A DNA stretch of 34,878 nucleotides from a virus. The position numbers and the translations under genes are program-made. Of this stretch, positions 11,347-33,610 are shown piece by piece. The DNA lies in the IMG/VR virus record IMGVR_UViG_3300021367_000005, positions 1 to 34,878 of that record, one strand, 5' to 3'. Position 1 is the stretch's first letter; the number at the start of each line of letters is the position of its first letter. The notes beneath the pieces were generated by a model, which worked only from the letters and a program-made list of their open reading frames with translations, was not told where the DNA came from and did no database searches.

Positions 11347-11359
11347 AGAGGAATACAGA

Positions 11360-11839: not shown

Positions 11840-11878
11840 CCCTTCTTTGCACAAGGAAGTGCTTGACCTGGTATCAAT

Positions 11879-15194: not shown

Positions 15195-16382
15195 ATGGCG
15201 GCAATAATAACTAGAACGGGGAAAGGCGCAGCCATAACGCAGGCTGAAAATGATGCCAATCTTGATTCGCTCTGTGGTGTGAATGAGTCACAAACTGGTA
15301 CGACTTACACTGTCGATGCGGCGGATCAAAATGGAACAATTGAATTCTCTAACGCGTCACCTGTTGCAGTAACGCTCACCTTAATCGCAACCATTATCGC
15401 TGCTAATGATACCTCTGATTTCCAGGTGACTTTAAAAAATATCGGCGCAGGCACGGTGACGATCACCCCGACGACTGATACTTTCGACGATGGCTCATTA
15501 ACGAAAGTGCTGTCCCAATATGAATGGATCACAATTCAATCGGATAGCACTCAGACACTATGGAATATTGTTGTTTCATCGAATGCAAGCAAAGTTGATG
15601 GATTGGATGCTGGCCAGTTCCTGCGCTCTGATATTGATGATGTGACTACTGGTAATTTAACAATTAATAAGGCCAGTCCTTATTTGGTGATAAACGATAG
15701 TGGGGCCACTAATGGGCATATTCTTTTTAGAGATAATTTTGTTAGTCGAGCCCTGACTTATTGGGACAGATCATCGGATGCATATATTGTAAGGCAGTAT
15801 GATGTCGATGGCGTAACTATTGCCTCTCAGATGAACTTTGATCAAGACGGAACGACAAGCGTCACGGTAGGCTCTTTTGATTTTGCAACGGCCAGTTGGC
15901 AGATAGGAAGTGTCGCTGTTACATCGGACGCCGCAGAGCTAAATCTGCTGGAAAATGCCACATCAACTGACATTACCACCTCTGATTTACTGGCTGGTGT
16001 TATCAATGCTGTCTATCCCATTGGTTCAATCTATATCTCTACAGTAGCAACGAATCCAGGCACTCTACTGGGTGTTGGTACCTGGGTCGCATCAGGCGTT
16101 GGCAGCGTCCTGGTCGGTGTTGGGACATCTGATGAGACTTATACGCTTGATGATACGGGGGGCGCTAGCACCGAGACGGCACATCTTCATGGTGTGTCAA
16201 TAACATCCGCGGGAACAGGCAATATTGGCGCCAATCAAGATGGCGCGCCCGCAATCCCATGGCCTTCCGCGATAGCGCCACACACCCATAATGTCGTTGG
16301 AAATACCGCCAACAATTCCCCAAGTACTGGTGACAACATGCCACCTTATCTAACTGTTCAAATATGGGAACGAACAGCCTAG
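15195..16382 (+). CDS. tail fibre-like protein with tail-collar-type C-terminus
   Basis: This 395-residue protein starts directly after the stop of the previous gene. Residues 134-150 contain KVDGLDAGQFLRSDIDD, a motif frequent in phage fibres. The C-terminal third has YPIGSIYISTVATNPGTLLG, then TWVASGVGSVLVGVG, then His-rich turns (TAHLHG, PHTHNVVG) and the NMPPYLTVQIWERTA terminus. This is the collar or fibre-tip layout of many tail fibres, where His residues can bind metal. The protein probably trimerises and contacts the cell surface or another fibre. Confident on family, not on partner. Confidence 0.8.
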   Translation: MAAIITRTGKGAAITQAENDANLDSLCGVNESQTGTTYTVDAADQNGTIEFSNASPVAVTLTLIATIIAANDTSDFQVTLKNIGAGTVTITPTTDTFDDGSLTKVLSQYEWITIQSDSTQTLWNIVVSSNASKVDGLDAGQFLRSDIDDVTTGNLTINKASPYLVINDSGATNGHILFRDNFVSRALTYWDRSSDAYIVRQYDVDGVTIASQMNFDQDGTTSVTVGSFDFATASWQIGSVAVTSDAAELNLLENATSTDITTSDLLAGVINAVYPIGSIYISTVATNPGTLLGVGTWVASGVGSVLVGVGTSDETYTLDDTGGASTETAHLHGVSITSAGTGNIGANQDGAPAIPWPSAIAPHTHNVVGNTANNSPSTGDNMPPYLTVQIWERTA

Positions 16383-16414
16383 TGAATCAAAATATTTAAC
16401 CTGGTTTTTTCTTG

Positions 16415-16909
16415 ATGGCTCAAATACTAGTCTACAAAGGTCACCGAACCGTTAAAGGCTTCTCTGATAACCGAGTTATTAAACAGAGTAAAAAAAACCG
16501 AAATAATATTCTTGATTTACAAAAAGCCATGGAGTCGATGGAACAAACCATGGATCAGTTTCCATTAACTCACCACTTTGCGCCCGGTGTCTACGCAAGA
16601 GAAATGTTTCTACCTGCCGGACATACCATTGTTGGAAAAATTCACAAACACGCGCACCTTAATTTTTTAATGAAGGGTGTTGTCGTTGTCTCAACTGAAG
16701 AAGGCTCAAAAGAATTAAACGGTCCTTGCATTTTCACTTCTTACGCCGGAACAAAACGAGCCGTATACATCAAGGAGGATGCTATCTGGGCAACAGTTCA
16801 TGTGACAGAAGAAACCGATTTAACTGAAATAGAGAACGAAATCATTGCAAAAGATTTTAAAGAGATAGAAAGAGATAAACGAATGACTGAATTAGAGAAG
16901 ATCGTATGA
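16415..16909 (+). CDS. cupin-domain protein in the virion operon
   Basis: The 164-residue product has an N-terminal basic segment (VIKQSKKNRNNILDLQKA), then a single cupin barrel (about 55-140). LPAGHTIVGKIHKHAHLNFLMKG shows His residues at likely metal positions, followed by VVVVSTEEGSKELNGPCIF and IWATVHVTEETD. Cupins bind metal or sugar. In phage operons such proteins are rare and may be virion components. The ATG at 16415 is taken; a TTG three bases earlier is possible. The ribosome site is weak. It overlaps the first ejection-protein gene by four bases. Function is unknown. Confidence 0.75.
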   Translation: MAQILVYKGHRTVKGFSDNRVIKQSKKNRNNILDLQKAMESMEQTMDQFPLTHHFAPGVYAREMFLPAGHTIVGKIHKHAHLNFLMKGVVVVSTEEGSKELNGPCIFTSYAGTKRAVYIKEDAIWATVHVTEETDLTEIENEIIAKDFKEIERDKRMTELEKIV

Positions 16910-18072
16910 CCTGGGGAGCCACTGCTGTTGTTGGGTCAATCGCCGCGCCGGTTATTGGCGGTTATATGGGCGCAGAAGCTACGCGTGAGGCCGCTGACAT
17001 TTCCTCTGCTTCAGATGAAAGGGCCGCGCAAATACAGCAGGATATGTATTTGCAAGGGCGACGTGATTTGCAGCCCTGGATGGATGTTGCTACAGGCGCG
17101 CCAACTTACAACCAGGTTTATGACCCCACCGCGCCCAGACAGACACCTGAAGATATTGTTGATTTTTCTAACTTCGTCCTTGCACAGGCGAGAGGTGAGG
17201 TCGATGCCCAGGGCTACGCGCTAAATGCGACGGGAGCGAGAGAGGTTACAGGTTATGGTGAAGGCGGAGCGCTCAGTCAATTGGCCGGTTATGGTCGGAG
17301 CCAGGTCTCGCCCGAGGATTATATTCCTGGGTCGGCTATTCCCGAGTTTGCCCCCCAATCCGACGTTCGCGATTTTGATGTTAGAGGTGATCAGCCTGAA
17401 TATAATCGGCTAGCCGACATCACCCAAGACCCCTCCTATCAGTTTAGAAAAGCAGAACAAGATAGAGCCATTAACAGGAATATGGCAGGCATGGGAAAGC
17501 TCATGTCGGGCAATCGCCTTGAGGAATTAATGGCCCGCAGTGGTGATTTAGCGTCACAGGAGTATAGCGCGGGCTACGGCCGAAACATTCAAGACTACGA
17601 ACTTGAACGCGCTCGCGAGGCAGCGGGTTACGGTCGAGATTTAACTGGGTTTGAACAAAACCGATTAGCTGAATCTTCTCGTTATGGTCGCGATGTTGAC
17701 GCTTACAATGCGGCTGCCTCACGAGAGGCTCTTGGCTATGGCCGAGGCGTTGACGCTTATGGTCGCGCCTACGGGCAAGAGGCAGATTATCTAAACAGGC
17801 TTACTGGTCTTGCAAACGTAGGCCAGAGCTCAGCCAGCAATATTGCCGGAATGGGCGCAAATACCGCCGGGATTATGGGCGCGAATATTGCTGCCAGTGG
17901 TAGCGCACAAGCGGCCGGGCGTCTGGGTGAGACAGCAGCCTGGACGGGCGCATTAGGGGATCTCGCTTCGCTCGGAACGCAATATGCTATGAGCCCGTCT
18001 CCTCAGAATTACACAACACCACCCGGCTACGGAGGCACATCGATGTCAGGCTGGGATTACTACGGGGCTTGA
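16906..18072 (+). CDS. probable DNA-ejection (internal virion) protein, gp7-like position
   Basis: This 388-residue protein starts with a Gly/Ala membrane-active-looking segment (WGATAVVGSIAAPVIGGYMG). It contains DPSYQFRKAEQDRAINR followed by MSGNRLEELMA (about 175-210), a layout known from podovirus ejection proteins. Residues 223-294 are four exact-length 18-residue repeats opening with GYGR or RYGR. The C-terminus is Gly/Ala/Ser rich. It is the first of three such genes, as in P22 gp7-gp20-gp16. Ejection proteins leave the virion with the DNA and form a channel across the envelope. The role is inferred from position and composition. Confidence 0.75.
   Translation: MTWGATAVVGSIAAPVIGGYMGAEATREAADISSASDERAAQIQQDMYLQGRRDLQPWMDVATGAPTYNQVYDPTAPRQTPEDIVDFSNFVLAQARGEVDAQGYALNATGAREVTGYGEGGALSQLAGYGRSQVSPEDYIPGSAIPEFAPQSDVRDFDVRGDQPEYNRLADITQDPSYQFRKAEQDRAINRNMAGMGKLMSGNRLEELMARSGDLASQEYSAGYGRNIQDYELERAREAAGYGRDLTGFEQNRLAESSRYGRDVDAYNAAASREALGYGRGVDAYGRAYGQEADYLNRLTGLANVGQSSASNIAGMGANTAGIMGANIAASGSAQAAGRLGETAAWTGALGDLASLGTQYAMSPSPQNYTTPPGYGGTSMSGWDYYGA
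17572..17787 (+). repeat. four tandem 18-residue (54-bp) coding repeats
   Basis: Residues 223, 241, 259 and 277 each start an 18-residue unit beginning G/R-Y-G-R, then a small or acidic residue, a branched aliphatic residue, two or three residues, Tyr/Phe, and an Ala/Arg-rich helix. The DNA copies differ at many bases, so this is an old expansion kept by protein-level selection rather than a fresh duplication. Confidence 0.85.
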
Positions 18073-18073
18073 T

Positions 18074-19222
18074 ATGGCTTTGAATCAGTTAATAGCCCAG
18101 GGCGGGCGCAATATCAAATCACCTGTTCAGCGCTACATGGAGACGCGAGCACAGATGAATCAGGAGCAACAGAACAGGCTCTCACAAGAGGCGACGCGCC
18201 AGAATATGCTTGCACAGCGCCAACAGATGACCATGGGTCAACAGCGACAACGAGTAGAAATGGGGGAAGCTTATGCGAAGGCTGTTATGCCCATTGTTGA
18301 ATCGGTTAACAGAGAGAAGGACAAGCAAGCGGCGTGGTCGCAAGTCTATCCCGAGATAGAGCGAGTCGCTTCTCAGTACAATGTCCCACTAACGGACCAG
18401 TCAAAAACCTGGAGTCAAAACAATGCTGACTCATTGATAAACCGGTTTGGTCGCGAACAAATAACAACGAATTACGTTGACGGTATGCCAGTGCAGAGAT
18501 CCTCTTTGACGGGAAGAGAAACAACAAGCCCTCGCGCAAGTCAGAGAATCACTCAGGGCCTTTACTCGAAAATCGATCCATCTAAATACACACCGGCGTC
18601 GCTGGATTTATTCGCTGAAACAAAAAAATATTCTGATCTTGTCTCAAAACCAAGCACATTAACCGAAGGGCTAACCGTTGGAGAGGAAGCCGTTGACAAG
18701 GCCATCGCCAAAGACTATGTCGCATGGACGACAGGCGGATTTTCTGATATTGAAAAAAGCCTCACTCAATTAAAGTCAGCACAGCAAAGACTAGAGAGCG
18801 GAGAGGAGAATCTAACAGGGCCTGTAATTGGCCGGATATCCGATGTGATTAAATCAACAACAAACCCTGGCGCTGTAGATGTTAAGGAGCAGGTGGCGGA
18901 GGTTGTCCAGCGAAATCTTCGACTAGTGCTTGGTGCGCAGTTCACAGAAAAAGAAGGGAATCAATTAATAGCGAGAGCCTACAACGAGAACCTGGACGAA
19001 GCAATTAATGCAGAAAGAGTCGGGCGATTAATAAAAGCAATACAAGGCGCCGCTAAAGAAAAACAAAAATCGATGGACTACTACAGTAAGAATGGAACGC
19101 TGAAGGGGTTCAAGGGGAAACAGCTGACCATAAATGATATAGAAGATGAGATGGATGGCAGGACAAAAAATAGTGAAGAGGAAAGCAGTGGCGGCTGGTC
19201 AATAAGGAAGGTAAATGACTAA
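18074..19222 (+). CDS. probable DNA-ejection (internal virion) protein, gp20-like position
   Basis: This 382-residue protein is strongly helical. The first 75 residues are a Gln/Arg/Met-rich coiled-coil-like helix (RYMETRAQMNQEQQNRLSQE and more), followed by a globular Gln-poor middle and a helical C-terminal half (about 200-345) with AKDYVAWTTGG and LVLGAQFTEKEGNQL. The tail is Gly/Ser/Glu rich. It follows the first ejection gene by one base and overlaps the next by eight. This is the layout of P22 gp20 and relatives; the specific function within the ejection apparatus cannot be read. Confidence 0.7.
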   Translation: MALNQLIAQGGRNIKSPVQRYMETRAQMNQEQQNRLSQEATRQNMLAQRQQMTMGQQRQRVEMGEAYAKAVMPIVESVNREKDKQAAWSQVYPEIERVASQYNVPLTDQSKTWSQNNADSLINRFGREQITTNYVDGMPVQRSSLTGRETTSPRASQRITQGLYSKIDPSKYTPASLDLFAETKKYSDLVSKPSTLTEGLTVGEEAVDKAIAKDYVAWTTGGFSDIEKSLTQLKSAQQRLESGEENLTGPVIGRISDVIKSTTNPGAVDVKEQVAEVVQRNLRLVLGAQFTEKEGNQLIARAYNENLDEAINAERVGRLIKAIQGAAKEKQKSMDYYSKNGTLKGFKGKQLTINDIEDEMDGRTKNSEEESSGGWSIRKVND

Positions 19223-20912
19223 GTATCAGATAACGTCACCCGATGGCCAGCTCTTCGAGATAGAGGCACCCACCTCTGCAACAAACGAAGATGTGATCAA
19301 ATATGCAAAGGCGCAATGGGCTGCTGAGACGCCAGCGCCAGCGCAGGTTCCAATGCCGACCTCAGAGCAGACCCCAGAGCAAACTCCGGCTGTCCCACCA
19401 ACTGCCCCTCCTACTGCAATCCCAGAGCCCGATGATTTTTTGGAGCGAGTGGGTCAGCGACATTCAGGGCGAGTTCAGTCTACAACGGAAACACTAAAAG
19501 ATTTAGCGGGGCGCAGAGTTGAGCCAAAAGAAGCCCTCTTGCAGGTAGCCGGGAGCGGGGCGGGAATGGCTCTGGATATTGTCGGTGAGGGTTTGACCAG
19601 TACCGGTAGAGGGATCGCTGAGATAACACCCGAGCCTGTAAAAAAAGCCATTAGCGCTGGAGTTGAATCCTTCGCGAATGCGATGCCATTCAGAGATGAG
19701 GTCATGTCGGCGTTAAGCGGCGGCATAGGTTCCTGGTCTGACTTTTCAGGAAATAATCCACGCGCTGCAAAAAATATTGAGTCTATTTTTAATATCGGAA
19801 TGCTGCTGGCTCCAGTAAAGGTAAAAGCAAGAGCAGATCCTTCGCCTTTAGGACGTGTCGCCAAATCGCTCGACCTGGCGACAGACAGACAATTGCTGAA
19901 AAGAAGATCTGACTTTGTTGGAAAATTAATTTCACCAGAGCGAAGTAAAAAAGTGTTGATTGAAGAGACAGCAAGGACTGCTGAGAAGGGCCGAGGGTTA
20001 CTCAAGAGAAGCGTTGTCGATTTATCAGGGCACGAAAAGAGTGTGGCAGCAGAGGTGGCAAAGATTAGAAGTGTGACGCCGAAAAATAGTTATCAAGGCA
20101 ATCTTAATGCTATCGCTCAAGAAAACAAAGTCATGGGCGATCAGCTCAAAAAAAGAATTGGCGATAGATTAATGCTTAACCTGCCAGGCGAGGCCACAAG
20201 AAAAATAGATGACGCTATTGAGAACTTGATTTTAGAAAATCCTGTTATTACTGGGAACGCTGCTACTGTTGCGAATAAAATTGCTGTAAAGGCAAAACAG
20301 ATAATAGAAAAAAATAGGTCATCTCCTCGTGGCCTTTTAACTGCCAGACAAGAATTGGATTCATGGATTAAAGCTCAAAAAGGATCAAAGGTTTTTGACC
20401 CGGAACTAGAGGGATCCTTATCGGTTTCAGTTCGCGCTGTTAGAACAGCAATGAACGACATTCTCGACAAGAATGCGAGCGTTGCTGTTAAAGATAGTTT
20501 GAAACGACAGAGTCTTTTGTATAACGCCATGGATAATCTGGCGCCCAAGGCCGCAGCACAATCAAATTATGCTGTCGGCAGGCTCGTGCAAGATGTTGCA
20601 ACGGTGCTGCCTTTTAGTTCTAAATTCATTAATGAGTTTAGCACTGTCCTCGGTTTAGGACTTGTCGGCGGCTCAGCGCTTCTTTCACCTGGCGCTGTCG
20701 GCAGTTTAGCTTCAGCTGCGATTGTAGGTCGCGCCGGATATAAAACAGTGATTAGCCCCACAGCAAAAAAGGCTTTGTCATCCCTGATAAAGGCCACTGA
20801 TAAAGCGATCTATACATCAAAAAATCCATCAATGATAAAACAGCTAAGGGCTGACAGAGCTCTTGTTGTTGAGCTGCTGAAAAAAGCTGAGGTTCGTGAG
20901 GACGACACATAA
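19215..20912 (+). CDS. probable DNA-ejection (internal virion) protein, gp16-like position
   Basis: This 565-residue protein opens with YQITSPDGQLFEIEAPTSAT, a domain common at the start of phage internal or ejection proteins. A Pro/Gln/Thr linker (about 37-72) follows. The middle has hydrophobic helices such as LQVAGSGAGMALDIVGEG and IFNIGMLLAPV, and the C-terminus has Gly/Ala segments (LGLGLVGGSALLSPGAVGSL) able to insert into membranes. In P22, gp16 makes a membrane channel after ejection. It overlaps the preceding gene by eight bases and ends before a terminator at 21000-21022. Confidence 0.7.
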   Translation: MTKYQITSPDGQLFEIEAPTSATNEDVIKYAKAQWAAETPAPAQVPMPTSEQTPEQTPAVPPTAPPTAIPEPDDFLERVGQRHSGRVQSTTETLKDLAGRRVEPKEALLQVAGSGAGMALDIVGEGLTSTGRGIAEITPEPVKKAISAGVESFANAMPFRDEVMSALSGGIGSWSDFSGNNPRAAKNIESIFNIGMLLAPVKVKARADPSPLGRVAKSLDLATDRQLLKRRSDFVGKLISPERSKKVLIEETARTAEKGRGLLKRSVVDLSGHEKSVAAEVAKIRSVTPKNSYQGNLNAIAQENKVMGDQLKKRIGDRLMLNLPGEATRKIDDAIENLILENPVITGNAATVANKIAVKAKQIIEKNRSSPRGLLTARQELDSWIKAQKGSKVFDPELEGSLSVSVRAVRTAMNDILDKNASVAVKDSLKRQSLLYNAMDNLAPKAAAQSNYAVGRLVQDVATVLPFSSKFINEFSTVLGLGLVGGSALLSPGAVGSLASAAIVGRAGYKTVISPTAKKALSSLIKATDKAIYTSKNPSMIKQLRADRALVVELLKKAEVREDDT

Positions 20913-20999
20913 AAATACTGTTGTCTCCAACCAAGCCGCGAATGTATTCGCGAGCTCGCTAAAGAAAAAATTAATTCGAATTAAAACTAAGTAAGAAAG

Positions 21000-21022
21000 C
21001 CCGCATAAAGCGGGTTTTTTTT
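21000..21022 (+). terminator. strong intrinsic terminator
   Basis: CCCGC (21000-21004), loop ATAAA, GCGGG (21010-21014), then eight T residues. It closes the ejection-protein group and leaves the next gene with a 17-base gap from stem to ATG. Confidence 0.85.
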
Positions 21023-21031
21023 GGAGAAAAA

Positions 21032-21550
21032 ATGACTTTAGGTTCTGTTTCAATATCCAATCAGTCGTTAATCATTACAGGTTTATCGACTGACACAAAA
21101 CCAACTACAACGGCGTCGGCAACGAATAAATTCCTGGAGACCGACACAGGTGATATTTATGAATACAGTGGCAGCGCATGGATAAAACTGGTTGAGTCGG
21201 GTGCGATTATTTCGGAGCCTAACCAGTTGGCGCAAGAGAGAAACATTGGCACAGCCAACCAGTATGGTGTCGGTGTTTCGGAGTGCAATGCGATGATACT
21301 AAACGGGTCACTAGCTGTTGCTGTTAGCGGTGGGGCCCCTGCCCTGGTCTTCGGTGTATTGATTGGCACCTCTGGTGCAACAGCGACAATTGTTGGCTTG
21401 AGCGATCAGACGCCAACAGCAAGGTCTGTGATACTGACGTCATCATCTGTGAGCCAGTTCTTTGACTTGAGAGGCATGAAAGTCGATGCAACTTTCACGG
21501 TAAACCCATCGATCAGCAATGATGTTGTTGTCTTTTGGCGGCCACAGTAA
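21032..21550 (+). CDS. small beta-rich virion protein preceding the receptor-binding proteins
   Basis: The 172-residue product starts at ATG 21032 with GGAG nearby. Residues 33-52 read NKFLETDTGDIYEYSGSAWI, a short strand-turn unit widespread in phage tail or head-fibre proteins. The C-terminal half is beta-rich (QTPTARSVILTSSSVSQFFD). It may be an adaptor or head-fibre subunit for the two beta-helix proteins after it. Its stop overlaps the start of an 18-codon reading frame (21550). Function is inferred from position and beta content. Confidence 0.6.
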   Translation: MTLGSVSISNQSLIITGLSTDTKPTTTASATNKFLETDTGDIYEYSGSAWIKLVESGAIISEPNQLAQERNIGTANQYGVGVSECNAMILNGSLAVAVSGGAPALVFGVLIGTSGATATIVGLSDQTPTARSVILTSSSVSQFFDLRGMKVDATFTVNPSISNDVVVFWRPQ

Positions 21551-21606
21551 TGAGCACCTCTCCGATTGGCTCTCTCCCCCTCAGGAGAGGAACCTGTGGC
21601 AACTGA
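21550..21606 (+). promoter_or_regulatory. 18-codon leader ORF crossing a hairpin that contains a Shine-Dalgarno sequence
   Basis: A short ORF starts at ATG 21550, overlapping the stop of the preceding gene (TAATG), and ends with TGA at 21604-21606, just past the GTG start (21596) of the first beta-helix gene. CTCTCC (21572-21577) can pair with GGAGAG (21584-21589), six pairs and a six-base loop, hiding the ribosome site AGGAGAGG (21583-21590). A ribosome on the leader ORF would open this hairpin. The seen facts are the ORF, the pairing and the positions; the regulation is inferred. Confidence 0.6.
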
Positions 21607-23299
21607 AACTGTTTACATCGATCCTGTGCTCGGTAACGACGGAACAGGGGCCGTTGACGATCCTAATTTACCCTTTAAGCACATCCAGGAAGGTGTCAAC
21701 GCATTGACTGTTGGTTCTGACGGGATCGCTATGCTTGCTCCCGGCACTTATGTTGAGGACTCGGGCGGCACAAATTACTGCCTCCTTGACCGGGACTTAA
21801 CTTCATTGACAATCGCTCCAAGCATCGACTATAGCTCGGTGATAAAAGCAGCGGCTGTCGGCTCTCAGGTCGCCGTCATCTCAGCGCAATCACCTTTATC
21901 TGTTTTTAGCTTGGGCAAGGTGATTATTGACGCTGAATCAACTCAAACTTTTCATGTTATTTTTGACGCTACCCTTGAGATGTCTGCTGTAATTGATGGA
22001 AGTCGATTTGTTAATTGCTTTTTTTCTGTTTTTGGCCAGGTGGATTATCTAACATCTCTTTTGTTGAAAAACGAATGGCGAACAGTCGATGCTCTCCGTG
22101 TTCTGGAGTCATCGCCCGCCGTGGTCGGCGCGCAAGTAACTGTCTCGGACGGCTACATTATAAATAGCGGGGTCGATCTAGCAAGAGCGCCTATATTTAT
22201 AGTCGCGAACGCCGTTGGTGTTGATGTCGTTGTTGACAATATCCTGTTTGACTATACGCCTTCGCCAATAGGCGCAGCGCACCGATCCATGATTGTTCTT
22301 GATGGCGCAGCGACTATGACTGTAAAAAACAATCATTTTAAATTTTATAACAATGGCTCAACAGCGACCGCATCCGGTGTTCGAATCAAGCCTAATGCTG
22401 TTTACCGGCCCTCCTCTGTAATTATTGAAGATAATTATGTGGGGGACAATACCCTTTCCCCGCTTGCTACTTGCATTACTGTGGGCTTTACGACTCCGAC
22501 AAATAGCAACAGAATCGATGGCGTCGTTGTTCGAAGAAACCAGCTTGCCAGTGCTGACAATGGCTTAATCTTTGGCTTCATAACGGATGCCGAAAGTTAT
22601 TCAAATAAAATAAACGATGTCATTGTTGGTTGCCTTGCTCTAGGAACGACAACCTGTCGATTTTCTGGGAACCTAATAATTGATGCATCTGGGCAGACGT
22701 TATATGGGAAGAACGACACGGATAGTATTTTTGCAAACAATACCTGCGTCGCAAACACAGTGACACCTGCCGGGCATTTTTATACCGGATTTAACTTAAT
22801 ACAAGGCGTAGACGATACGCATGGCACTTTGTTTGCAAACAATATTGTTTATGATCATATCGGGGATAATTATATTATTTACAATGCTGTCTTTTCTGAT
22901 GCAAAGTACAAAAACAATAACATGTTTCAGCCAAATGGGAATTCCTTCCCTCGCTTTTTTTATGATGGTGTAGCAACCGATTTCCTATTCTTTTTAACTC
23001 TCATCGTCAACGCTGGGTCGCTGGGAAGTATGGCTGATAATCTTGAAGTCGATCCTGAATTCGAATCCAGGTTCAGTTACGAGTTGGCTTCATTCAGTCG
23101 GCTAATTGGGGCCGGCCTAAAGTGGTGGTCGTTAACCGAAGATTCACCGCTGGACATGGATGGGAGTCCTTTCTGGGGTGCTTATGTTGACATCGGCGCA
23201 TACTCAACATGGGATGGCAATCCTCGACGTATTCCTTCACCCAAGCGGCTCGCCTCTCCAGGTCGATCAACTTCTTATCGAACATCTTACGTCCCATAG
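21596..23299 (+). CDS. beta-helix tail spike / receptor-binding protein 1
   Basis: GTG 21596 is chosen because AGGAGAGG lies five bases upstream; an earlier in-frame ATG (21566) lies in the hairpin region. The 567-residue product opens with ETVYIDPVLGNDGTG, typical of right-handed beta-helix (pectin-lyase-like) proteins, and has many turns with Asn-Asn pairs (NNTCVANT, NNIVYDH, NNNMF). Beta-helix tail proteins bind or cut surface polysaccharide. No catalytic pair is evident. Its C-terminus (about 515-560) shares a module with the next protein: GLKWW, then FWGAYVDIGAYSTWDG, then RRIPSP. Unique among them is the Ser/Arg-rich tail. Confidence 0.8.
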   Translation: MATETVYIDPVLGNDGTGAVDDPNLPFKHIQEGVNALTVGSDGIAMLAPGTYVEDSGGTNYCLLDRDLTSLTIAPSIDYSSVIKAAAVGSQVAVISAQSPLSVFSLGKVIIDAESTQTFHVIFDATLEMSAVIDGSRFVNCFFSVFGQVDYLTSLLLKNEWRTVDALRVLESSPAVVGAQVTVSDGYIINSGVDLARAPIFIVANAVGVDVVVDNILFDYTPSPIGAAHRSMIVLDGAATMTVKNNHFKFYNNGSTATASGVRIKPNAVYRPSSVIIEDNYVGDNTLSPLATCITVGFTTPTNSNRIDGVVVRRNQLASADNGLIFGFITDAESYSNKINDVIVGCLALGTTTCRFSGNLIIDASGQTLYGKNDTDSIFANNTCVANTVTPAGHFYTGFNLIQGVDDTHGTLFANNIVYDHIGDNYIIYNAVFSDAKYKNNNMFQPNGNSFPRFFYDGVATDFLFFLTLIVNAGSLGSMADNLEVDPEFESRFSYELASFSRLIGAGLKWWSLTEDSPLDMDGSPFWGAYVDIGAYSTWDGNPRRIPSPKRLASPGRSTSYRTSYVP

Positions 23300-23307
23300 G
23301 TCTATTA

Positions 23308-25017
23308 ATGGCAACACTTCTAGTTTCTTCAGCCGGTGATAATTCAGACGGGCTAACCTGGGCAACTGCATTTAATGAGATAAGCACTGCCTTCGATAAT
23401 TTAACTGGCGTTCAGGATGATACCGTCATCCTTGATGATGAGGACCATAACCAGACGGGCAATCTATATACAGACGGAGGGACAAAAACAGGTGGAACGC
23501 TTATTCTTGAGTCAAGAAGTGGCGATCATCGTATCTGCTCAATCTCGGGAGACCCTACAGGAACAGGTAATTTTTACTTACTGAGAAACAATGAGATAAC
23601 AACAGGTAATCCAAACTTGAAGGTGAAAAACATTACCTTCAAGGATCACTCAAGAACTGACTCGGTTCCCTTGATAGCTAATACGAATACGAGTATTTTT
23701 ACATTGGAGAATTGCGCCTGTCATAACCTCAATCTGACAGCCGCAGCCGCGGCAACGAACGGACTTATTCGCCAAACCGGCACAACATCAAAAGACTTCA
23801 CTATCGCTGGGTTGAGCGTTACGAACTGTTCAGTTATTCATATTAATTCCACGAGCAGCAATGAAGGGCTGCTTTTTTCATCTTCAGTTATTGGCGCTTC
23901 TGTGGGCACTTTTTCAGATATTGTAGTCGATGACTTTTACTATGAGTCAGGCACGAACGCTCAAATGAATGGCATGTGCTTTTATAAAGGAGCACAGACC
24001 TGGAGCGGTACAAATACCTTTAAAAATATAACAATCATCATAGGTGAGAATAGTTACGGTCTAATTAAGATTGATACAACCACTGGTTACAATCACTCAA
24101 TAACAGGCACGATGACGATAGATAATGTGAACACCAGTATCTTTACATCCAATACAAGCCTGGGCTTAGTTAATGTGGCATCAAGCGATTCATTAACGAT
24201 TGATGCTAATTTTGAAGCCAAAAATTGCACAAGTGATATCGTGAATGCTGACTATGGGATTATCTCAAATAACAACTCCGCATCGACATTGGTTATAGGG
24301 GGAAGCATATCGATTCACGATAATGAGTCTAATGTCGGCACTGGTTTCATATCAAACTTTGGTGGGGATTTTACTTTATCCAATGCCGAGATATATGATA
24401 ACTCGTGTGAGTTCGGTGGCGCAATCGCACTGCTACCACAGATCGCGACACAGCTAGTTTACAACTGCTCATTTCATGACAATATCGCGACAACCAGTGG
24501 GGGAGCTGTGTTCGCAATGACGCTGTCGACGCCAAATTCATTGGCTATGCATAACTGCACTTTTTTCAATAATTCATGTATCGTCCCAGGTGAAAGTGAC
24601 GGGCTCTATATCCTGGCCTTTGTCGCTGCTAACGATTTTGATATTGATAATTGCATTTTTTGGAACCAGGACGATGATGATGAGATCCGTGTTAGTGGCG
24701 CAGCAAGTATCACACTCAACATAGCCAACTCTGATGTTCGTGGTGGTGCCGCCGCCGTCACTGGCGCCGACACTTACGTTAACAATATCGAGGCTGACCC
24801 GCAATTTAACGGTGATTTAACTCTCTCAAAATATAGTCCCTGTGTTGGCATTGGGTTAAAATGGTGGCCCGATAATATAACCAATCCTGTCGACCTAAAT
24901 GGTCATTACTTTTGGGATGCTTATGTCGATGTTGGCGCTTATTCAACCTGGGATGGAAGTTATAGACGCGTCCCGGCTCCTGCCCGTTTTTCGGCGAAAA
25001 GAAATCCTACTAGCTAG
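23308..25017 (+). CDS. beta-helix tail spike / receptor-binding protein 2
   Basis: ATG 23308 follows TAGG; the upstream in-frame region (from 23209) lies in the previous gene and is not needed. This 569-residue protein has the same N-terminal style (LLVSSAGDNSDGLTWATAFN), many Cys-Asn and Asn-Asn turns (ENCACHN, YNCSFHDN, HNCTFFNNSC) of a beta-helix, and ends with the shared module (GLKWW, FWDAYVDVGAYSTWDG, RRVPAPARF). The cysteines fall at regular intervals on the helix turns. It stands eight bases after its paralogue, so they are one transcript. Receptor or capsule binding is inferred. Confidence 0.8.
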   Translation: MATLLVSSAGDNSDGLTWATAFNEISTAFDNLTGVQDDTVILDDEDHNQTGNLYTDGGTKTGGTLILESRSGDHRICSISGDPTGTGNFYLLRNNEITTGNPNLKVKNITFKDHSRTDSVPLIANTNTSIFTLENCACHNLNLTAAAAATNGLIRQTGTTSKDFTIAGLSVTNCSVIHINSTSSNEGLLFSSSVIGASVGTFSDIVVDDFYYESGTNAQMNGMCFYKGAQTWSGTNTFKNITIIIGENSYGLIKIDTTTGYNHSITGTMTIDNVNTSIFTSNTSLGLVNVASSDSLTIDANFEAKNCTSDIVNADYGIISNNNSASTLVIGGSISIHDNESNVGTGFISNFGGDFTLSNAEIYDNSCEFGGAIALLPQIATQLVYNCSFHDNIATTSGGAVFAMTLSTPNSLAMHNCTFFNNSCIVPGESDGLYILAFVAANDFDIDNCIFWNQDDDDEIRVSGAASITLNIANSDVRGGAAAVTGADTYVNNIEADPQFNGDLTLSKYSPCVGIGLKWWPDNITNPVDLNGHYFWDAYVDVGAYSTWDGSYRRVPAPARFSAKRNPTS

Positions 25018-28765: not shown

Positions 28766-29668
28766 TTAGATTGAGTTTTTATGGAAAAGCGAATCTCTTT
28801 TTGCGCCCACAATCTCAGGGAACGACTGGCCTGATCTCCACCTTATGGAACCAACTGCGACATCGTCATAGTAAGCATTCCATGTATTGATTAGATATGC
28901 GAGTGCATACCGCTTATCCAATAGCACTTGCTGTGATCTAAACTTTATCATAATTGTCCTGTATTCTATTATGGGCGATTTCTTCTCCAGCCCTTCACCA
29001 TGCTCTATCTTATTGAAGAAATCAAAAGATCTGTCTGGATCAATGTGCTGAGTAACATATATAAAGAAAAGTGCAAGGCTGGGTTGAACTACAAAGCGCA
29101 ATCGCTCGGCATCGGTTGTCATTTTCCCAAATTTCGGCCAGCGCTTTAATCCCTCAAGGATATCCTCGGGACACAGCTCCGAGGTCCAGTGAAGCTTCTC
29201 GTCTCGCTCATAAGTTAACATCCAGCGAACCGCTGCTGACAGGATATGTACATTCTTGAATCCTGCCATTTTCAATATATCACCAGCTGATCTGGACCGA
29301 CCTGTGTCAATAGTCTTAAAGAACGTGGGGCTCAGTCCCATAGCTAAGGAAACAGCAACAGGCTTGTCTGCTTTCGCGATCGCGTTCAATCGATGTTGCC
29401 CATCCAGCAAGACAAATTCGCCGTTTTTCTGCCCTAGCTTTATCGTCTCGCCATTGAGCACCCATCGCCCCATGTTCATTAACCTAAGATATTTGTTAAT
29501 GAGATTTGTGTTCAAGTGTCGATTATTTCCGTTGCCTTGAAGTAATTCTTTGGCATCTTCCTGCGAGAGTTTAACGTTCATAAATTCCACGACAGGATTC
29601 TTCGTCACCGCTAAGCGCTCGATAGTCATTATCCAGTCGGGAATGATTTTGTTTGATGCTACAACCAT
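28766..29668 (-). CDS. ParB/Srx-fold DGQHR-type protein
   Basis: The 300-residue product has the ParB-like signature VLLDGQHRLNAIA at about 86-98, with DGQHR at 89-93, followed by the FKTIDTGRSRSAGDIL region. The N-terminus (NVKLSQEDAKELL) and a 150-residue helical C-terminal part follow the layout of phage and mobile-element ParB-like proteins of unknown target. Partition ParB usually works with ParA, which is absent, so plasmid partitioning is unlikely. A regulatory or exclusion role is possible. TTAGGAG precedes ATG 29666-29668. Its promoter has CTTAAG in the spacer. Confidence 0.8.
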   Translation of the reverse strand: MVVASNKIIPDWIMTIERLAVTKNPVVEFMNVKLSQEDAKELLQGNGNNRHLNTNLINKYLRLMNMGRWVLNGETIKLGQKNGEFVLLDGQHRLNAIAKADKPVAVSLAMGLSPTFFKTIDTGRSRSAGDILKMAGFKNVHILSAAVRWMLTYERDEKLHWTSELCPEDILEGLKRWPKFGKMTTDAERLRFVVQPSLALFFIYVTQHIDPDRSFDFFNKIEHGEGLEKKSPIIEYRTIMIKFRSQQVLLDKRYALAYLINTWNAYYDDVAVGSIRWRSGQSFPEIVGAKRDSLFHKNSI

Positions 29669-29706
29669 TTTAACTCCTAAGGTATTATTTTTAGTAAGGA
29701 GATTAA

Positions 29707-29755
29707 ATAGTAAGCTATGCTTAAGTCTGTTTCAAGAACTTTAGCAATACTTAAG
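29707..29755 (-). promoter_or_regulatory. leftward promoter with CTTAAG operators
   Basis: On the minus strand TTGAAA (29730-29735) and TACTAT (29707-29712) are 17 bases apart. CTTAAG (29720-29725) lies between them, and a second copy (29750-29755) is 30 bp upstream. The promoter would drive the ParB-like and AlpA-like genes. The pair suggests cooperative repression by a dimeric factor. Confidence 0.65.
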
Positions 29756-29830
29756 TTATCGATAAAATAAAAATTATTCCATTGAGAGCTTTTCTTCCCT
29801 TGTGACGAACGGTGGACTCAGTGAAAAAGA

Positions 29831-29868
29831 TGTGTAGAAAAGTGTGTAGTTGTGTAGGTTTTGTGTAG
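29831..29868. repeat. four TGTGTAG repeats, candidate integrase arm sites
   Basis: TGTGTAG occurs at 29831, 29843, 29851 and 29862, with spacing 12, 8 and 11. Direct heptamers to one side of an attachment core are typical arm-type sites bound by the N-terminal domain of a tyrosine integrase. The related TGTGTTG pair lies on the integrase side. Confidence 0.65.
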
Positions 29869-29940
29869 GTTTTGGGAGGTTTTCGCGAAACCCGTAGAAA
29901 CCTCTCTTTCCTCCAAGAGGTCGCTACGGCGCGGTTTGTT

Positions 29941-29985
29941 TGGCTCCCCGACCTGGACTCGAACCAGGGACAAACGGATTAACAG
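29941..29985 (-). other. attP: attP core: 3' end of a tRNA-Asn gene
   Basis: On the minus strand the 45 bases read CTGTTAATCCG (anticodon GTT and loop), then a T-arm with CCTGGTTCGAGTCCAGG, then TCGGGGAGCCA with encoded CCA. This matches the 3' part of gammaproteobacterial tRNA-Asn. The 5' half is absent: nothing upstream forms a D-arm or a TCCCCGA acceptor strand, so this is not a functional tRNA gene. It is the phage-borne identity segment that would restore the host tRNA on integration. Confidence 0.85.
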
Positions 29986-30026
29986 ATCGACCTCAAGTCC
30001 CAGTATGGCGGCCTCTCAGTTGGTCT

Positions 30027-30045
30027 TGTGTTGTTAAGTGTGTTG
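30027..30045. repeat. two TGTGTTG repeats, candidate arm sites on the integrase side
   Basis: TGTGTTG at 30027-30033 and 30039-30045 is spaced by 12, as are the first two TGTGTAG copies at 29831 and 29843. One base differs between the two heptamer types. Together they flank the core, as P and P' arms do. Confidence 0.5.
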
Positions 30046-30118
30046 CTGGCTTCCTTTTTTGTCGCTTTCTATGACTTCGGGGTGTCGCGGGGGTAGCCTA
30101 AAAACAATAGCAAGTCGC

Positions 30119-30143
30119 AAAAAAAACGGGGCGAGAGCCCCGT
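30119..30143 (-). terminator. intrinsic terminator after the integrase gene
   Basis: On the minus strand AACGGGGC, loop TCTC, GCCCCGTT is followed by a run of T residues (plus-strand A residues 30119-30125). It ends leftward integrase transcription and shields attP. Confidence 0.85.
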
Positions 30144-30166
30144 TCTAAATTAAAGTACAGCTTAAG

Positions 30167-31213
30167 TCAGCCGACTGCTTTTAGCCTGGGTTTTTGAGGT
30201 GGGGAGATAGGCCTTGTTGGCATGTCGTCACGAAGATCCTCAACACTAAAGTTCATGTAACGGCGAGCCATCTTATCAGTTGAGTGTCCCATCAATCTCA
30301 TGATTTTGTATTGTGGCTTTCCTGCCTTCGCCATTAGTGTTCCAAATGTGTGCCTCAGATCATGAAAAAGATAATGCAGCATATCGCATTCTTTTCTCGC
30401 ATGTAAAAAGTCTGCTTTAATGCGGTTTTCACTGTACTTGATTGGTATATGTTTCTTTACGAACTCAACCTGGGAATCGTTTAATGGAATGACGCGAAGC
30501 TTTTTTCCTTTTCCATCGACATGTAAGTCATGACCACGCAAAGACTTTTCGCTTAGTCTCCATATCTCGGCAGTACGCAATCCAGTGTAAGCGGTAAAAA
30601 TAACCAGCTCGCGTGTGACGTCCAACTTGCATGCCGCAGCAAGTGCTTCAACTTCTGCTGGCTCAATATATATTTCCCGTTCACTGGAAGCTTCATTCAG
30701 TCGGGTGATTTTCTTGTAAGGTGGTTCAGTCAACCAATGCCATCGCGAATAAGCTAAGGTAGCTATACCACTTAAAATAGCAGACTTTTTGTTGATGCTT
30801 GAATTTTTATATCGTAAGACCATCTCGCCGATTTTTTTATCTAGCTTCAGCGCCTTCTGCATGTCCAATACCATTTCGTTTGTAACCTGATATATTTCGG
30901 ACAATGGTCTCGTTTCATCAACGAATTCACGGATTATTTTAAGGTGGGTGTTGTACTTCTCAGGTGATACTAGTGTGGGTTGTTTTTCTTCTATCCAGCG
31001 GATTAGTCCATCCTGAATATTTCGATGATAGAAGATGCCATTTGCCTCGTCCTCTACTTCCTTTCTTTTTTGCAAGTAGGCAGCAAGAGCTAACTCTTCT
31101 TGCCCGACTTTGTAGCCAGTAGTTGATCTAATTGCTCTGCCTTTGTGATGAAAGTTAAAGTAGAGTGTGTTGCCCCTTGTTGTAATTGGGTTTTTTGTTC
31201 GTTGTTTTGACAT
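30167..31213 (-). CDS. int: tyrosine-family site-specific integrase
   Basis: The 348-residue product has an N-terminal arm-binding domain (TTRGNTLYFNFHHKGRAIRS), a core-binding helical middle (about 65-170) and a C-terminal catalytic domain. It shows Arg213 (AYTGLRTAEIW), a Lys near 237-238 in the beta hairpin, HDLRHTFGTLMAK (His284, Arg287), LMGHST (His310) and Tyr319 (ARRYMNFS). All catalytic residues are present. It integrates the phage at tRNA-Asn. The start at 31213 lies inside the excisionase-like gene, a 124-base overlap in another frame. It is followed by a terminator and attP. Confidence 0.95.
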   Translation of the reverse strand: MSKQRTKNPITTRGNTLYFNFHHKGRAIRSTTGYKVGQEELALAAYLQKRKEVEDEANGIFYHRNIQDGLIRWIEEKQPTLVSPEKYNTHLKIIREFVDETRPLSEIYQVTNEMVLDMQKALKLDKKIGEMVLRYKNSSINKKSAILSGIATLAYSRWHWLTEPPYKKITRLNEASSEREIYIEPAEVEALAAACKLDVTRELVIFTAYTGLRTAEIWRLSEKSLRGHDLHVDGKGKKLRVIPLNDSQVEFVKKHIPIKYSENRIKADFLHARKECDMLHYLFHDLRHTFGTLMAKAGKPQYKIMRLMGHSTDKMARRYMNFSVEDLRDDMPTRPISPPQKPRLKAVG

Positions 31214-31401
31214 ACTGCTTGCCCTCGCTCTCTTAGTTTTTCTATGTAGTCTTTTACATCATCTGGATGCAGCCGATCTGATCGCGATGATTTGGTAAAT
31301 CTAACGACGCTCAGCTCTCCCGCTAATACTGCCCTTCGCAGTGTTCTTTTCGTGCAGAGGCACAGCTCAGCCGCCTCAGAAAAGGTTAGTAAGTCTTTCA
31401 T
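31090..31401 (-). CDS. excisionase-like HTH protein
   Basis: The start MKDLLTF (ATG 31399-31401) lies seven bases after GGA; the upstream frame to 31446 lies across the promoter and is not used. The 103-residue product has an HTH_17/excisionase-type domain: LTFSEAAELCLCTKRTLRRA at 5-24, then a basic wing with VVRFTKSSRS, then HPDDVKDYIEKL. The C-terminal half is Gln/Thr/Lys-rich. It shares 124 bases with the integrase gene, as lambda xis and int overlap, though the overlap here is longer. It likely bends the DNA at attP during excision. Confidence 0.75.
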   Translation of the reverse strand: MKDLLTFSEAAELCLCTKRTLRRAVLAGELSVVRFTKSSRSDRLHPDDVKDYIEKLRERGQAVCQNNEQKTQLQQGATHSTLTFITKAEQLDQLLATKSGKKS

Positions 31402-31418
31402 TGTCATTCCTTTTATTA

Positions 31419-31446
31419 AGTATATCTTAAGTGTTATAGATAGCAA
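31419..31446 (-). promoter_or_regulatory. promoter of the excisionase-integrase genes with CTTAAG in the spacer
   Basis: On the minus strand TTGCTA (31441-31446) and TATACT (31419-31424) are 16 bases apart and CTTAAG (31426-31431) lies in the spacer. It begins 80 bases after the end of the annealing-protein gene, so int and xis can be controlled separately from it. Confidence 0.65.
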
Positions 31447-31527
31447 ACGGACTGCAACCTGGTTTTTGTGTTAAACCGATGGGCGGTACAGTCTATTTCT
31501 GCATATGGTAAGCAGCGGATGAGTAAT

Positions 31528-32280
31528 TCAGGCTAGTAACCGCCTTGCTGCGGCCTGATGCTCATTGCTAAGCCTTTGCCATACGATCGCTTTACCCGCT
31601 TCCCCTAGCTCTTCAGCAGCCTCAATTAAAGCCATGCCGTCATCTGTTTCTATGTATGCGATAAACAGGCTCTCATACTCGTCGATAACCTCTGCGCCTC
31701 TACTTTCCAGGGTTTTGACTAGCTCTTTCATTTTTCCCTTTTGGCCTTTAGGGAAAGAGCCATTGAGGGCAACCATCGCATTAACTGGAATACGTTGGAA
31801 AAAAATATAAAGGCCCATTGCATCATCATCCTCGATTAATTGCATGAATTGATCATGCTGCTCGTCGGTGTAGTCGGGCGCATTGAGGGGAAGGTCCTCT
31901 CCCTGGTAGATAAATAAGCCCAACCCATGTAGTGCAATAGCCTTGACCATGGCTCGCTGAATACTTGTGTTTATCTCAAAAGTGGAAGGTGATGCGACAG
32001 ACTCATTTTTGTAATTCAGGACGGGATGCAATTGAGACCTAATTACTCCATCTATAATGACAGACACTTCGACAAAAAAGCCTAGAGGAGTTTCAAGATA
32101 TGGAACCTCCAGCTCGGGTGCTGACGGCAACGGGAATCGCTTCACCTGGATAACTGCTTCTGGGTGATATTGACCTAGTGCCTCTATCGCAAACGGCCAG
32201 GACAGGTAACTAAACTGACCCTTTTGTTTAACGTGAGGGCTTACGTCGATAGAAGATAGTGACTGGAAATAGTTGGTCAT
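31528..32280 (-). CDS. single-strand annealing protein, Sak3/DUF1071 type
   Basis: The 250-residue product starts with YFQSLSSIDVSPHVKQKGQF then SYLSWPFAIEALGQYHPEA, the DUF1071 (Sak3-type) signature. The core ends with EINTSIQRAMVKAIALHGLG and LFIYQGEDLP, followed by a variable helical C-terminus. Such proteins anneal complementary single strands in phage recombination, usually with an exonuclease; no exonuclease is recognised here. ATG 32278-32280 overlaps the TGA of the upstream small gene. The two form an operon headed by CTTAAG at 32610. Confidence 0.9.
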   Translation of the reverse strand: MTNYFQSLSSIDVSPHVKQKGQFSYLSWPFAIEALGQYHPEAVIQVKRFPLPSAPELEVPYLETPLGFFVEVSVIIDGVIRSQLHPVLNYKNESVASPSTFEINTSIQRAMVKAIALHGLGLFIYQGEDLPLNAPDYTDEQHDQFMQLIEDDDAMGLYIFFQRIPVNAMVALNGSFPKGQKGKMKELVKTLESRGAEVIDEYESLFIAYIETDDGMALIEAAEELGEAGKAIVWQRLSNEHQAAARRLLA

Positions 32281-32567
32281 GTTAATTCATTCTCGGCAAG
32301 CTCATCGGCGAGCTGTGAGATATGAATATCAATGAACTCTAGAGTTATGACGCCAAGCAATTGTGTACTGTCATTCTCTCGACAGTATCTAACGATTGCC
32401 GCGTAATCCATGGACTCAGCCAGGGAATCGGAAAGGGCTTCCATAATAGAGGAACAGCTAGACCACATGTCTTCATGGATCTCTAAGGACATCTGATCTA
32501 GTCTTTTATTAAACTCGTCTTTCTGGTCTTCATAACTGTGAAGGTGTTTGTATTCGTTTTTATTCAT
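32277..32567 (-). CDS. small helical acidic protein preceding the annealing protein
   Basis: The 96-residue product (ATG 32565-32567) is acidic and helical, with a charged N-terminus (MNKNEYKHLHSYEDQKDEFN), then MSLEIHEDMWSSCSSIMEAL, then VITLEFIDIHISQLADEL. It shares four bases (ATGA) with the annealing-protein gene. Its place in a recombination operon recalls small partner or inhibitor proteins, but no family is recognised and no nuclease motif is present. The ribosome site is weak. Confidence 0.6.
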   Translation of the reverse strand: MNKNEYKHLHSYEDQKDEFNKRLDQMSLEIHEDMWSSCSSIMEALSDSLAESMDYAAIVRYCRENDSTQLLGVITLEFIDIHISQLADELAENELT

Positions 32568-32609
32568 GGTGAATACGATAAGCTTGTCTTGATACAAACT
32601 CAAGCACAA

Positions 32610-32615
32610 CTTAAG
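32610..32615. promoter_or_regulatory. CTTAAG element upstream of the recombination operon
   Basis: CTTAAG lies 43 bases upstream of the ATG at 32567 on the minus strand. No near-consensus promoter is clear here: TTGAGT and TATCGT with 17-base spacing is the best and lies downstream of the element. The site would fall about 20 bases upstream of that -35 box. Confidence 0.45.
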
Positions 32616-32804
32616 TTTTATTTTGAGGTGGTAATCCGGGCTACTTGATTACCGTGGCATGAAAACCTATGGCGTTGCTTAACTTAGTGGTAAGGGATTT
32701 AAGGTGAGCTTTAGTTGTTCGCTACTGTTGTAAGGTCATGCACTGCAGCTATGGCACCTGGCGAGCTGTTTGCGCAAGGTGCCTAGAGTGCTTATTTCTT
32801 ATCT
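32616..32804. other. intergenic region with a 7-bp inverted repeat
   Basis: GGCACCT (32753-32759) pairs with AGGTGCC (32777-32783) across 17 bases; no T-run follows in the leftward direction. It could be an RNA structure at the end of the repressor transcript. T-rich sequence at 32808-32816 lies inside the repressor's 3' end. No gene is supported. Confidence 0.45.
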
Positions 32805-33272
32805 CTATTTTTTTTTCGGTGGGTCATCCGGGTCATCCTGTTTATCCGTTAAGGAAATCAGAGCCATTAGTCCATCGTCGTCCAATATTTCATCCGCCTC
32901 TATATCATGAAGTAGGGTGTAGAAGAGCTTGAAATACCGGCTTTTCCTGACTTCGTCTCCTTCATAGAATATTTTCTCAATCGTCTTATTTTGCGAGAGG
33001 GCCGCGAAGACTTTCTCAAGTACGCGGTCACTGACTTCTGCGTTTCTGGCTGAGCAAACTAAAACATTCTCAGCGCACATCATTTGTTCAACTGTCACAT
33101 TAAATAGACGAGACAGTTTCAATAATTTATGGATGTCTGGGCTAGTGGAGAGTGCCTGTGACTCCCACTGGGAGACAGCGGCGGAACTTACCCCGCAGCG
33201 ATTGGCTAATTGATCTTGCGTTATTTTTTTCTTTTTTCTAAGGGCTTTTATATTGGTAGATAGGAGTGTCAC
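32805..33272 (-). CDS. prophage repressor-like protein without a protease domain
   Basis: GTG 33270-33272 follows AAGGA. The 155-residue product has an N-terminal HTH_3 domain (LRKKKKITQDQLANRCGVSS, then AAVSQWES, residues about 10-60) and a helical C-terminal part with LEKVFAALSQNKTIEKIFYE, an acidic region, and a Lys tail. It lacks the Ser-Lys catalytic S24 domain of lambda CI, so RecA-stimulated self-cleavage is not expected; another inducer or an antirepressor is required. It faces the Cro-like gene, with CTTAAG elements between. Residues 2-62 are close to other repressor HTH domains. Confidence 0.85.
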   Translation of the reverse strand: MTLLSTNIKALRKKKKITQDQLANRCGVSSAAVSQWESQALSTSPDIHKLLKLSRLFNVTVEQMMCAENVLVCSARNAEVSDRVLEKVFAALSQNKTIEKIFYEGDEVRKSRYFKLFYTLLHDIEADEILDDDGLMALISLTDKQDDPDDPPKKK

Positions 33273-33289
33273 TTCGTTCCTTGCGATAG

Positions 33290-33341
33290 CTTAAGAAACA
33301 CAATCTTAAGCGTCCCTTTAGATTATTGCAAGAAATTTAAG
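33290..33341 (-). promoter_or_regulatory. repressor promoter with operator cluster
   Basis: On the minus strand TTGCAA (33326-33331) and TAAGAT (33303-33308) are 17 bases apart. CTTAAG at 33305-33310 overlaps the -10 box, and CTTAAG at 33290-33295 covers the predicted start, 15 bp away centre to centre. A half-matching TTTAAG lies at 33336-33341 upstream of the -35 box. The two perfect copies suggest autoregulation of the repressor. The factor that binds is inferred. Confidence 0.65.
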
Positions 33342-33373
33342 GGGGTTATTCGGGGTAAGAGTCTGGAAGATGA

Positions 33374-33410
33374 TTGCCATAAATATTAGTATTGCTTATG
33401 ATAATCACCA
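33374..33410 (+). promoter_or_regulatory. rightward early promoter, possibly leaderless
   Basis: TTGCCA (33374-33379) and TATGAT (33397-33402) are exactly 17 bases apart. The predicted start is at or next to A33410, the first base of the Cro-like ATG, so the mRNA may have no leader, as lambda cI mRNA from PRM does. No CTTAAG lies within it. Confidence 0.65.
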
Positions 33411-33610
33411 TGACTAAAGTTACACTTAATAATATTCTAAGCTATACGACTGAGGCAGACATCGCGCGATATTTCAATATTAGTCCTGCTGCTGTAAATC
33501 AGTGGCACCTGAATGGCATTCCAGCGAACAGAATCATAGGACTTGAGCAGCTGACAAAGAAACAAGTGTTGCGCCATGAGATTAATCCAGATTTGTATCC
33601 TCTTGACTGA
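33410..33610 (+). CDS. Cro/YdaS-like DNA-binding protein
   Basis: ATG 33410 is preferred over ATG 33398 because the start of transcription is predicted there. The 66-residue product has a HTH, EADIARYFNISPAAVNQWHL, then GIPANRIIGLEQLTKKQVLR, the Cro/YdaS type (residues about 15-56), and the ending INPDLYPLD. It is the first gene of the right operon and divergent from the repressor, the classical position of Cro. Its TGA overlaps the start of the replication gene (TGATG). It probably opposes the repressor, though the sequence does not say which sites it binds. Confidence 0.85.
   Translation: MTKVTLNNILSYTTEADIARYFNISPAAVNQWHLNGIPANRIIGLEQLTKKQVLRHEINPDLYPLD

Follow-up and report, generated by a model that had tools for sequence, protein, structure and literature searches.

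Predicted operators of a short P22 c2-like repressor distributed over the early promoters of an uncultured temperate phage

Several described prophages carry a short CI-like repressor gene divergent from that of a small Cro or YdaS partner (DicA of Qin, GfoR/GfhR of Gifsy, RacR and PaaR2; PMC10448788, PMC5700373, PMC8630535), and the locus considered here resembles them in this arrangement. DicA and the Gifsy repressors are stated to be too short for RecA-stimulated self-cleavage (PMC10448788, PMC5700373, PMC8630535). The Gifsy repressors are instead released by antirepressors, and an antirepressor also derepresses the DicA-controlled operon (PMC10448788), while in CP-933P the footprints of the repressor (PaaR2) and of YdaS overlap (PMC8630535). 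The present locus is the control region (29707-33341) of the viral record IMGVR_UViG_3300021367_000005, the whole 34,878 nucleotides of which are called the window. It contains seven copies of the hexamer CTTAAG. These are very probably halves of 17-bp operators, predicted from sequence, for a short P22 c2-like repressor encoded in the same region; the YdaS-type Cro of the phage probably shares them. One repressor would then probably control most early genes of this uncultured temperate phage.

There are 11 copies of CTTAAG in the window (736, 1127, 2096, 5457, 29720, 29750, 30161, 31426, 32610, 33290 and 33305), an ordinary total compared to the 9.4 ± 3.0 expected, and the signal is one of clustering, not of overall excess. 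Seven copies occur in 29707-33341, where base and dinucleotide composition predict 1.0-1.6. The excess reported in the initial annotation is borne out, as none of 300 dinucleotide shuffles of 29690-33440 reaches seven (mean 1.54, maximum 6). Its coordinates are also correct except for one (30160 should read 30161), and the stretch it described as free of the hexamer (5739-25017) does lack it, although the true gap is wider, from 5463 to 29719. Other hexamers cluster too, the maximum per 3.6-kb stretch of the window being 9 for ATTAAT and 7 for AATATT, and since such palindromes cluster as well, the hexamer count alone is weak evidence for operators. All seven clustered copies are intergenic, though ∼75% of the stretch is coding (simple product 5e-5).

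When every spacing was tried for a second CTTAAG-like hexamer beside the seven copies, six had a partner exactly 5 bp away, with a summed match of 30 versus 15 ± 2.6 at random; the next-best spacing gave 21. CTTAAG is a half-site of a predicted 17-bp dyad, CTTAAG-N5-CTTAAG, roughly two-fold symmetric and with the consensus (C/A)TTAAG-N5-CTTAA(G/T). Nine such dyads, matching at 10 or more of the 12 positions, are found in 29690-33440, compared to a mean of 0.26 and a maximum of 3 in 300 shuffles. Those at 32698 and 33414 are missed by the hexamer count because neither holds an exact CTTAAG. Across 24 dyads (48 half-sites), T (85%), A (88%), A (98%) and G (94%) occupy positions 2, 4, 5 and 6, giving the half-site NTNAAG. 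The partner 5 bp away had gone unnoticed in the initial annotation, and its view that the core is much shorter than the usual lambdoid operator does not hold, CTTAAG being one half of a dyad of just that length. The sites are:

29709..29725, AGTAAG-ctatg-CTTAAG, promoter of the ParB-like gene
29739..29755, CTTTAG-caata-CTTAAG, upstream of the ParB-like gene
30150..30166, TTAAAG-tacag-CTTAAG, after the int stop codon and ahead of the int terminator
31415..31431, ATTAAG-tatat-CTTAAG, xis-int promoter
32577..32593, GATAAG-cttgt-CTTGAT, a weaker dyad over the spacer of the orf110 promoter, adjacent to the next
32599..32615, CTCAAG-cacaa-CTTAAG, upstream of orf110 and the annealing-protein operon
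32698..32714, TTTAAG-gtgag-CTTTAG, between orf110 and the repressor gene
33290..33295, single CTTAAG near the repressor transcript start (weak partner CTTGCG at N4)
33305..33321, CTTAAG-cgtcc-CTTTAG, repressor promoter
33384..33400, TATTAG-tattg-CTTATG, a weak dyad at the cro promoter
33414..33430, CTAAAG-ttaca-CTTAAT, spanning the first cro codons
1127..1143, CTTAAG-taaag-CTATAG, upstream (minus strand) of a small helix-turn-helix (HTH) gene at 737-922

Three relatives are available for comparison. L005 was found via the replication protein and has homologues of the repressor (49% identity), Cro (67%) and orf110; L010 and L011 were found by alignment of the window and L005 repressors, and L011 is syntenic with the window from int through the replication gene. 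Repressor identity to the three is 40-49%. The relatives hold 7, 7 and 5 dyads at N5 versus 0-1 at N3, N4, N6 and N7, and the pattern NTNAAG-Nd-CTTNA occurs 6, 5, 5 and 5 times at d=5 in the window and the three relatives, versus 0, 0, 0 and 1 times at d=4. Orthologous dyads are present in all three at the orf110-recombination, repressor and cro promoters, that at the repressor promoter (33305) being in the same register, and in some at the xis promoter (L010, L011), after the int stop (L011) and at the place of the 1127 dyad (L005, L010). The initial annotation had set, as a test of the operator idea, whether close relatives with the same regulators keep the sites; in silico, the same positions are kept. 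Identity between orthologous dyads is 84% in the half-sites, compared to 50% in the spacers and 55% in the flanks. The half-sites of the 32599 dyad are identical in all four phages while the spacers differ, and at 33414 the left half is identical and the right half close in all four. The int site has its perfect half on opposite sides in the window and in L011 (CTTAAG-taata-CTTTAT, position 320), which indicates that the dyad is kept while the sequence drifts. The 1127 dyad is kept as CTTAAG-N5-CTATAG in L005 (4002) and with CTATAC in L010 (5051), and a TATAAT lies nearby on the minus strand in the window (1117-1112) and in L005. The cro-promoter dyads of the relatives are stronger than that of the window, and the single half-site at 33290 has a counterpart, CTCAAG, at the same place in L005, while none is clear in L010 or L011. 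One further contig, L006, was rejected as a relative, sharing the replication protein only and having no CTTAAG. Viral contigs gave no match when scanned singly with the repressor, the annealing protein or the ParB-like protein, and a genome scan returned solely an unrelated Nocardia HTH protein.

A matrix built solely from the dyads of the relatives was applied to all 34.9 kb of the window. Its six best sites are, in order, 31415, 33305, 32599, 29739, 33414 and 1127; rank 7 is a coding site at 20092, and ranks 8-10 are 30150, 32698 and 29709. Nine of the ten are sites of the control region or 1127.

Promoter-like boxes accompany dyads at five promoters:

33331-33326 and 33308-33303, minus strand, repressor promoter, -35 TTGCAA and -10 TAAGAT
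33374-33379 and 33397-33402, cro promoter, -35 TTGCCA and -10 TATGAT
32603-32598 and 32580-32575, minus strand, orf110 promoter, -35 TTGAGT and -10 TATCGT
31446-31441 and 31424-31419, minus strand, xis-int promoter, TTGCTA and TATACT
29735-29730 and 29712-29707, minus strand, ParB-like gene promoter, -35 TTGAAA and -10 TACTAT

All four phages share the arrangement TTGnnn-N4-half-N5-half at three promoters (repressor, cro, orf110), with the CTTA of the last half running into the -10 box. The ParB-like promoter of the window shows the same register, and the xis dyad overlaps the -10 box in a slightly different one. The placements in the initial annotation are confirmed for 29720 and 31426 (within promoter-like spacers), 33305 (overlapping the -10 box of the repressor), 33290 (at the expected start of the repressor transcript) and 32610 (upstream of the recombination operon). 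At the orf110 promoter, the 32577 and 32599 dyads are 22 bp apart and form four half-sites in 11-bp steps, one per helical turn, which leaves room for two neighbouring dimers.

Two regulators are encoded divergently next to these sites:

32805..33272, minus strand, repressor gene, 155 amino acids, HTH_3 N-terminal domain (PF01381, E 1e-13)
33410..33610, plus strand, Cro-like gene of the YdaS family (PF15943, YdaS_toxin, E 5.9e-12, above cutoff)

By sequence, the best match of the repressor in the PDB is P22 c2 (phmmer, E 5e-6), and by fold, too, c2 comes first, its N-terminal domain aligning with that of the repressor over 65 residues (VIA-align, Z 11.4, root-mean-square deviation 1.6, 37% identity). 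The recognition helix, VSxAAVSQWES, is unchanged across the four phages except for one residue. Pfam reports only the HTH in this protein and gives no match to an S24 peptidase domain, and structure searches with the C-terminal half led to no identification. The Cro-like protein scores below cutoff against P22_Cro. Taken together, these comparisons support the operator network proposed in the initial annotation, tied to the regulators of the phage and extending over the repressor, cro, recombination, xis-int and ParB-like promoters.

The dyads could serve the YdaS-type Cro in the main, while the repressor binds only some of them or has its sites elsewhere. Cro is conserved too (its helix core AVNQWH is unchanged in L005), each of the four phages has a dyad across the start of cro, and there is the precedent of the overlapping footprints in CP-933P. 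Against this, the half-site equals that of P22 c2, the repressor helix resembles the c2 helix, and long repressors with an AAVSQWE helix (L012-L014) share the half-site, so that an assignment mainly to Cro is unlikely. The sites may still be shared by Cro, by analogy with YdaS and PaaR2. It is considerably less plausible that the motif is a promoter element, either part of the -35/-10 consensus or a site for a phage sigma factor or activator. Its half-sites do overlap the -35 (CTTGAG/TTGAGT) and -10 (CTTAnnAT) boxes in fixed register, but other dyads are outside that register (xis) or away from promoters (30150, and 320 in L011), the half-site in the spacer belongs to no sigma-70 consensus, and the half-site matches that of P22 c2.

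Arm-type sites of the integrase or excisionase are an even more improbable reading, proposed for the copies at 29720, 29750 and 30161, which flank a tRNA-Asn-like attP core at ∼29942-29987; dyads of the same kind are found at promoters that have no relation to attP, 1.3-3.4 kb from it, and TGTGTAG repeats at 29828-29890 are better candidates. A palindromic hexamer that clusters by chance, or a restriction site CTTAAG that is avoided elsewhere, would agree with the ordinary total count, with the clustering of other palindromic hexamers and with the 4 copies in the remaining 31 kb, below the ∼8 expected. The fixed 5-bp partner, the held-out prediction and the conservation at orthologous places contradict it, and its probability is negligible.

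The assignment of the dyads to the repressor has several points to its disadvantage. The half-site at 33290 is without a good partner, the cro-promoter dyad of the window itself is weak (8/12), the 33414 dyad is coding sequence, and that at 32698 is uncertain because no counterpart was seen in L005. No promoter is seen at the 30150 dyad, which thus has a non-promoter position, and no relative covers the ParB-like promoter (29709, 29739). The -35 and -10 calls are consensus matches, no commoner in the region than in shuffles; the model of the repressor C-terminal domain (helical) is of low confidence; and just three relatives were found, each a partial contig of an uncultured phage.

If the dyads are repressor operators, the mechanism is most likely steric exclusion of polymerase. 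In a lysogen, a repressor dimer on a dyad covering the -35/-10 spacer and the -10 box would exclude RNA polymerase; cro, the recombination operon, xis-int, the ParB-like gene and the small HTH gene would so have their promoters shut. The second dyad 22 bp away could allow cooperative binding at the recombination operon, and the dyad at the promoter of the repressor itself could serve negative autoregulation or shut-off by Cro. Loss of the repressor would free all these promoters together, and xis-int, recombination, cro and the ParB-like gene would start jointly, as all carry a dyad; a joint switch of this kind was put forward in the initial annotation. As the repressor is without a self-cleaving peptidase domain, induction must go another route, for example through an antirepressor (no candidate gene was identified); release as in Gifsy and DicA is possible by analogy. 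The genes concerned, besides repressor and cro, are:

28766..29668, minus strand, ParB-like gene (phrog_5931, E 8e-48, function unknown), below the 29709 and 29739 operators
30167..31213, minus strand, tyrosine integrase (PF00589, E 8e-18), 71% identical in L011
31090..31401, minus strand, excisionase-like gene xis (phrog_66 and phrog_2907, weak)
31528..32280, minus strand, Sak-type single-strand annealing protein (PF06378, E 2e-40)
32277..32567, minus strand, orf110 (short form of 96 amino acids; 96-110), ahead of the annealing protein, with homologues in L005, L010 and L011 and no family match in family searches

The ParB/Srx-like protein (28766-29668) sits beside attP, under predicted repressor operators. 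The ∼45 bp at 29942-29987 read as the 3' end of a tRNA-Asn (minus strand) and are identical in L011; they are likely the attP core for integration into tRNA-Asn, as judged from the letters, and no Rfam match or tRNA gene was found. Beside this core, at 29828-29890, are repeated TGTGTAG / TGTGTAGGTTTT units, possible arm-type sites of the integrase.

On L005 and L010 the two ends of the window fall 0.3-0.45 kb from each other, which indicates a phage genome that is almost complete and circularly permuted, and this places the 1127 operator ∼3 kb to the right of cro. Among the four outlying copies listed in the initial annotation, 1127 is thus a conserved predicted operator. The others are probably incidental: 736 falls on the overlap of two convergent stop codons, 2096 codes for KLK, the two looking like coding coincidence, and 5457 has no partner half. 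The large terminase subunit (5739-7226) is closest to that of Pelagibacter phage Baldr (43%) and to those of diverse Vibrio, Pseudomonas and enterobacterial phages. In L005, a ∼41-bp tandem duplication at 1001-1080 disrupts the normal repressor start (an assembly artefact or a mutant), and the early region at 7127-8053 encodes a protein with a zincin-type HELSH motif, which we take to be an antirestriction protein like ArdC.

A search of the open-access literature found no paper on CTTAAG repressor operators in phages. Repressor operators of phages and the P22-type half-site are known; as far as the tools and that literature show, the combination of a 5-bp spacer with such a half-site, a short repressor and dispersed sites is new. 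What began as a hexamer count thereby becomes an operator code that can be tested in an uncultured phage family, with the prediction that the repressor directly governs excision and recombination in addition to the repressor and cro promoters. It is conceivable, though rather doubtful, that this family combines P22-type half-sites with an extra central bp, a short repressor that does not cleave itself, one-dimer operators in fixed register within each early promoter, and a conserved post-int operator acting as a roadblock or looping anchor. Such a family, if real, would have a decentralised lambdoid switch.

In relation to the short-repressor prophages, the sites differ: the repeats are GCCTAA/TTAGGC for RacR and GTTTAGTAA for PaaR2, not NTNAAG-N5-CTTNAN, and no set of the latter dyads was found in the Rac, Qin or Gifsy-2 stretches. 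The stoperators of mycobacteriophage L5, which stop elongation from outside promoters, offer a parallel in that one repressor has many sites over the genome; in the window at least one predicted site, 30150, is outside promoters, and it is conserved at 320 in L011. L5-type sites are asymmetric and bound by a monomeric repressor (PMC9283540), whereas the dyads of the window are conserved in both halves.

The closest comparison is with P22, and it rests on the P22 sequence itself. The N-terminal domains are 38% identical over 63 residues, the recognition helices read VSNVAISQWE (P22) and VSSAAVSQWE (window), the half-site is NTNAAG in both (TTTAAG, GTTAAG and CTAAAG being P22 examples), and the repressor and cro genes are divergent in both. 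In contrast to the window repressor, with 155 amino acids and no such domain, c2 has 216 and a C-terminal peptidase-type domain. The P22 operators lie in two clusters of three (OL and OR), while the dyads of the window occupy six or more places, xis-int among them; clustered triple operators were not found, the dyads being ∼79-111 bp apart at the repressor/cro promoters, with two adjacent at the orf110 promoter. The half-sites are 4 bp apart at 5/5 sites in P22 and 5 bp apart in the window phage and the three relatives. In the P22 control region, NTNAAG-N4-CTTNA occurs five times and never at another spacing, as in the annotated operators. The prophages L012-L014, L033 and L034, whose long repressors have the helix VKGAAVSQWE, show the same half-site, also at N4, and of ∼50 other HTH loci these are the only ones with several copies of the motif close to the gene; where K, R, P or Q stands before AAVSQWE, no such dyad set was seen. 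A c2-like helix is accompanied by NTNAAG in both groups, so that helix and half-site go together and the spacing separates the groups. Similar helices and half-sites with a spacer of 4 bp in one case and 5 bp in the other thus provide a natural comparison for dimer geometry, operator spacing and immunity specificity.

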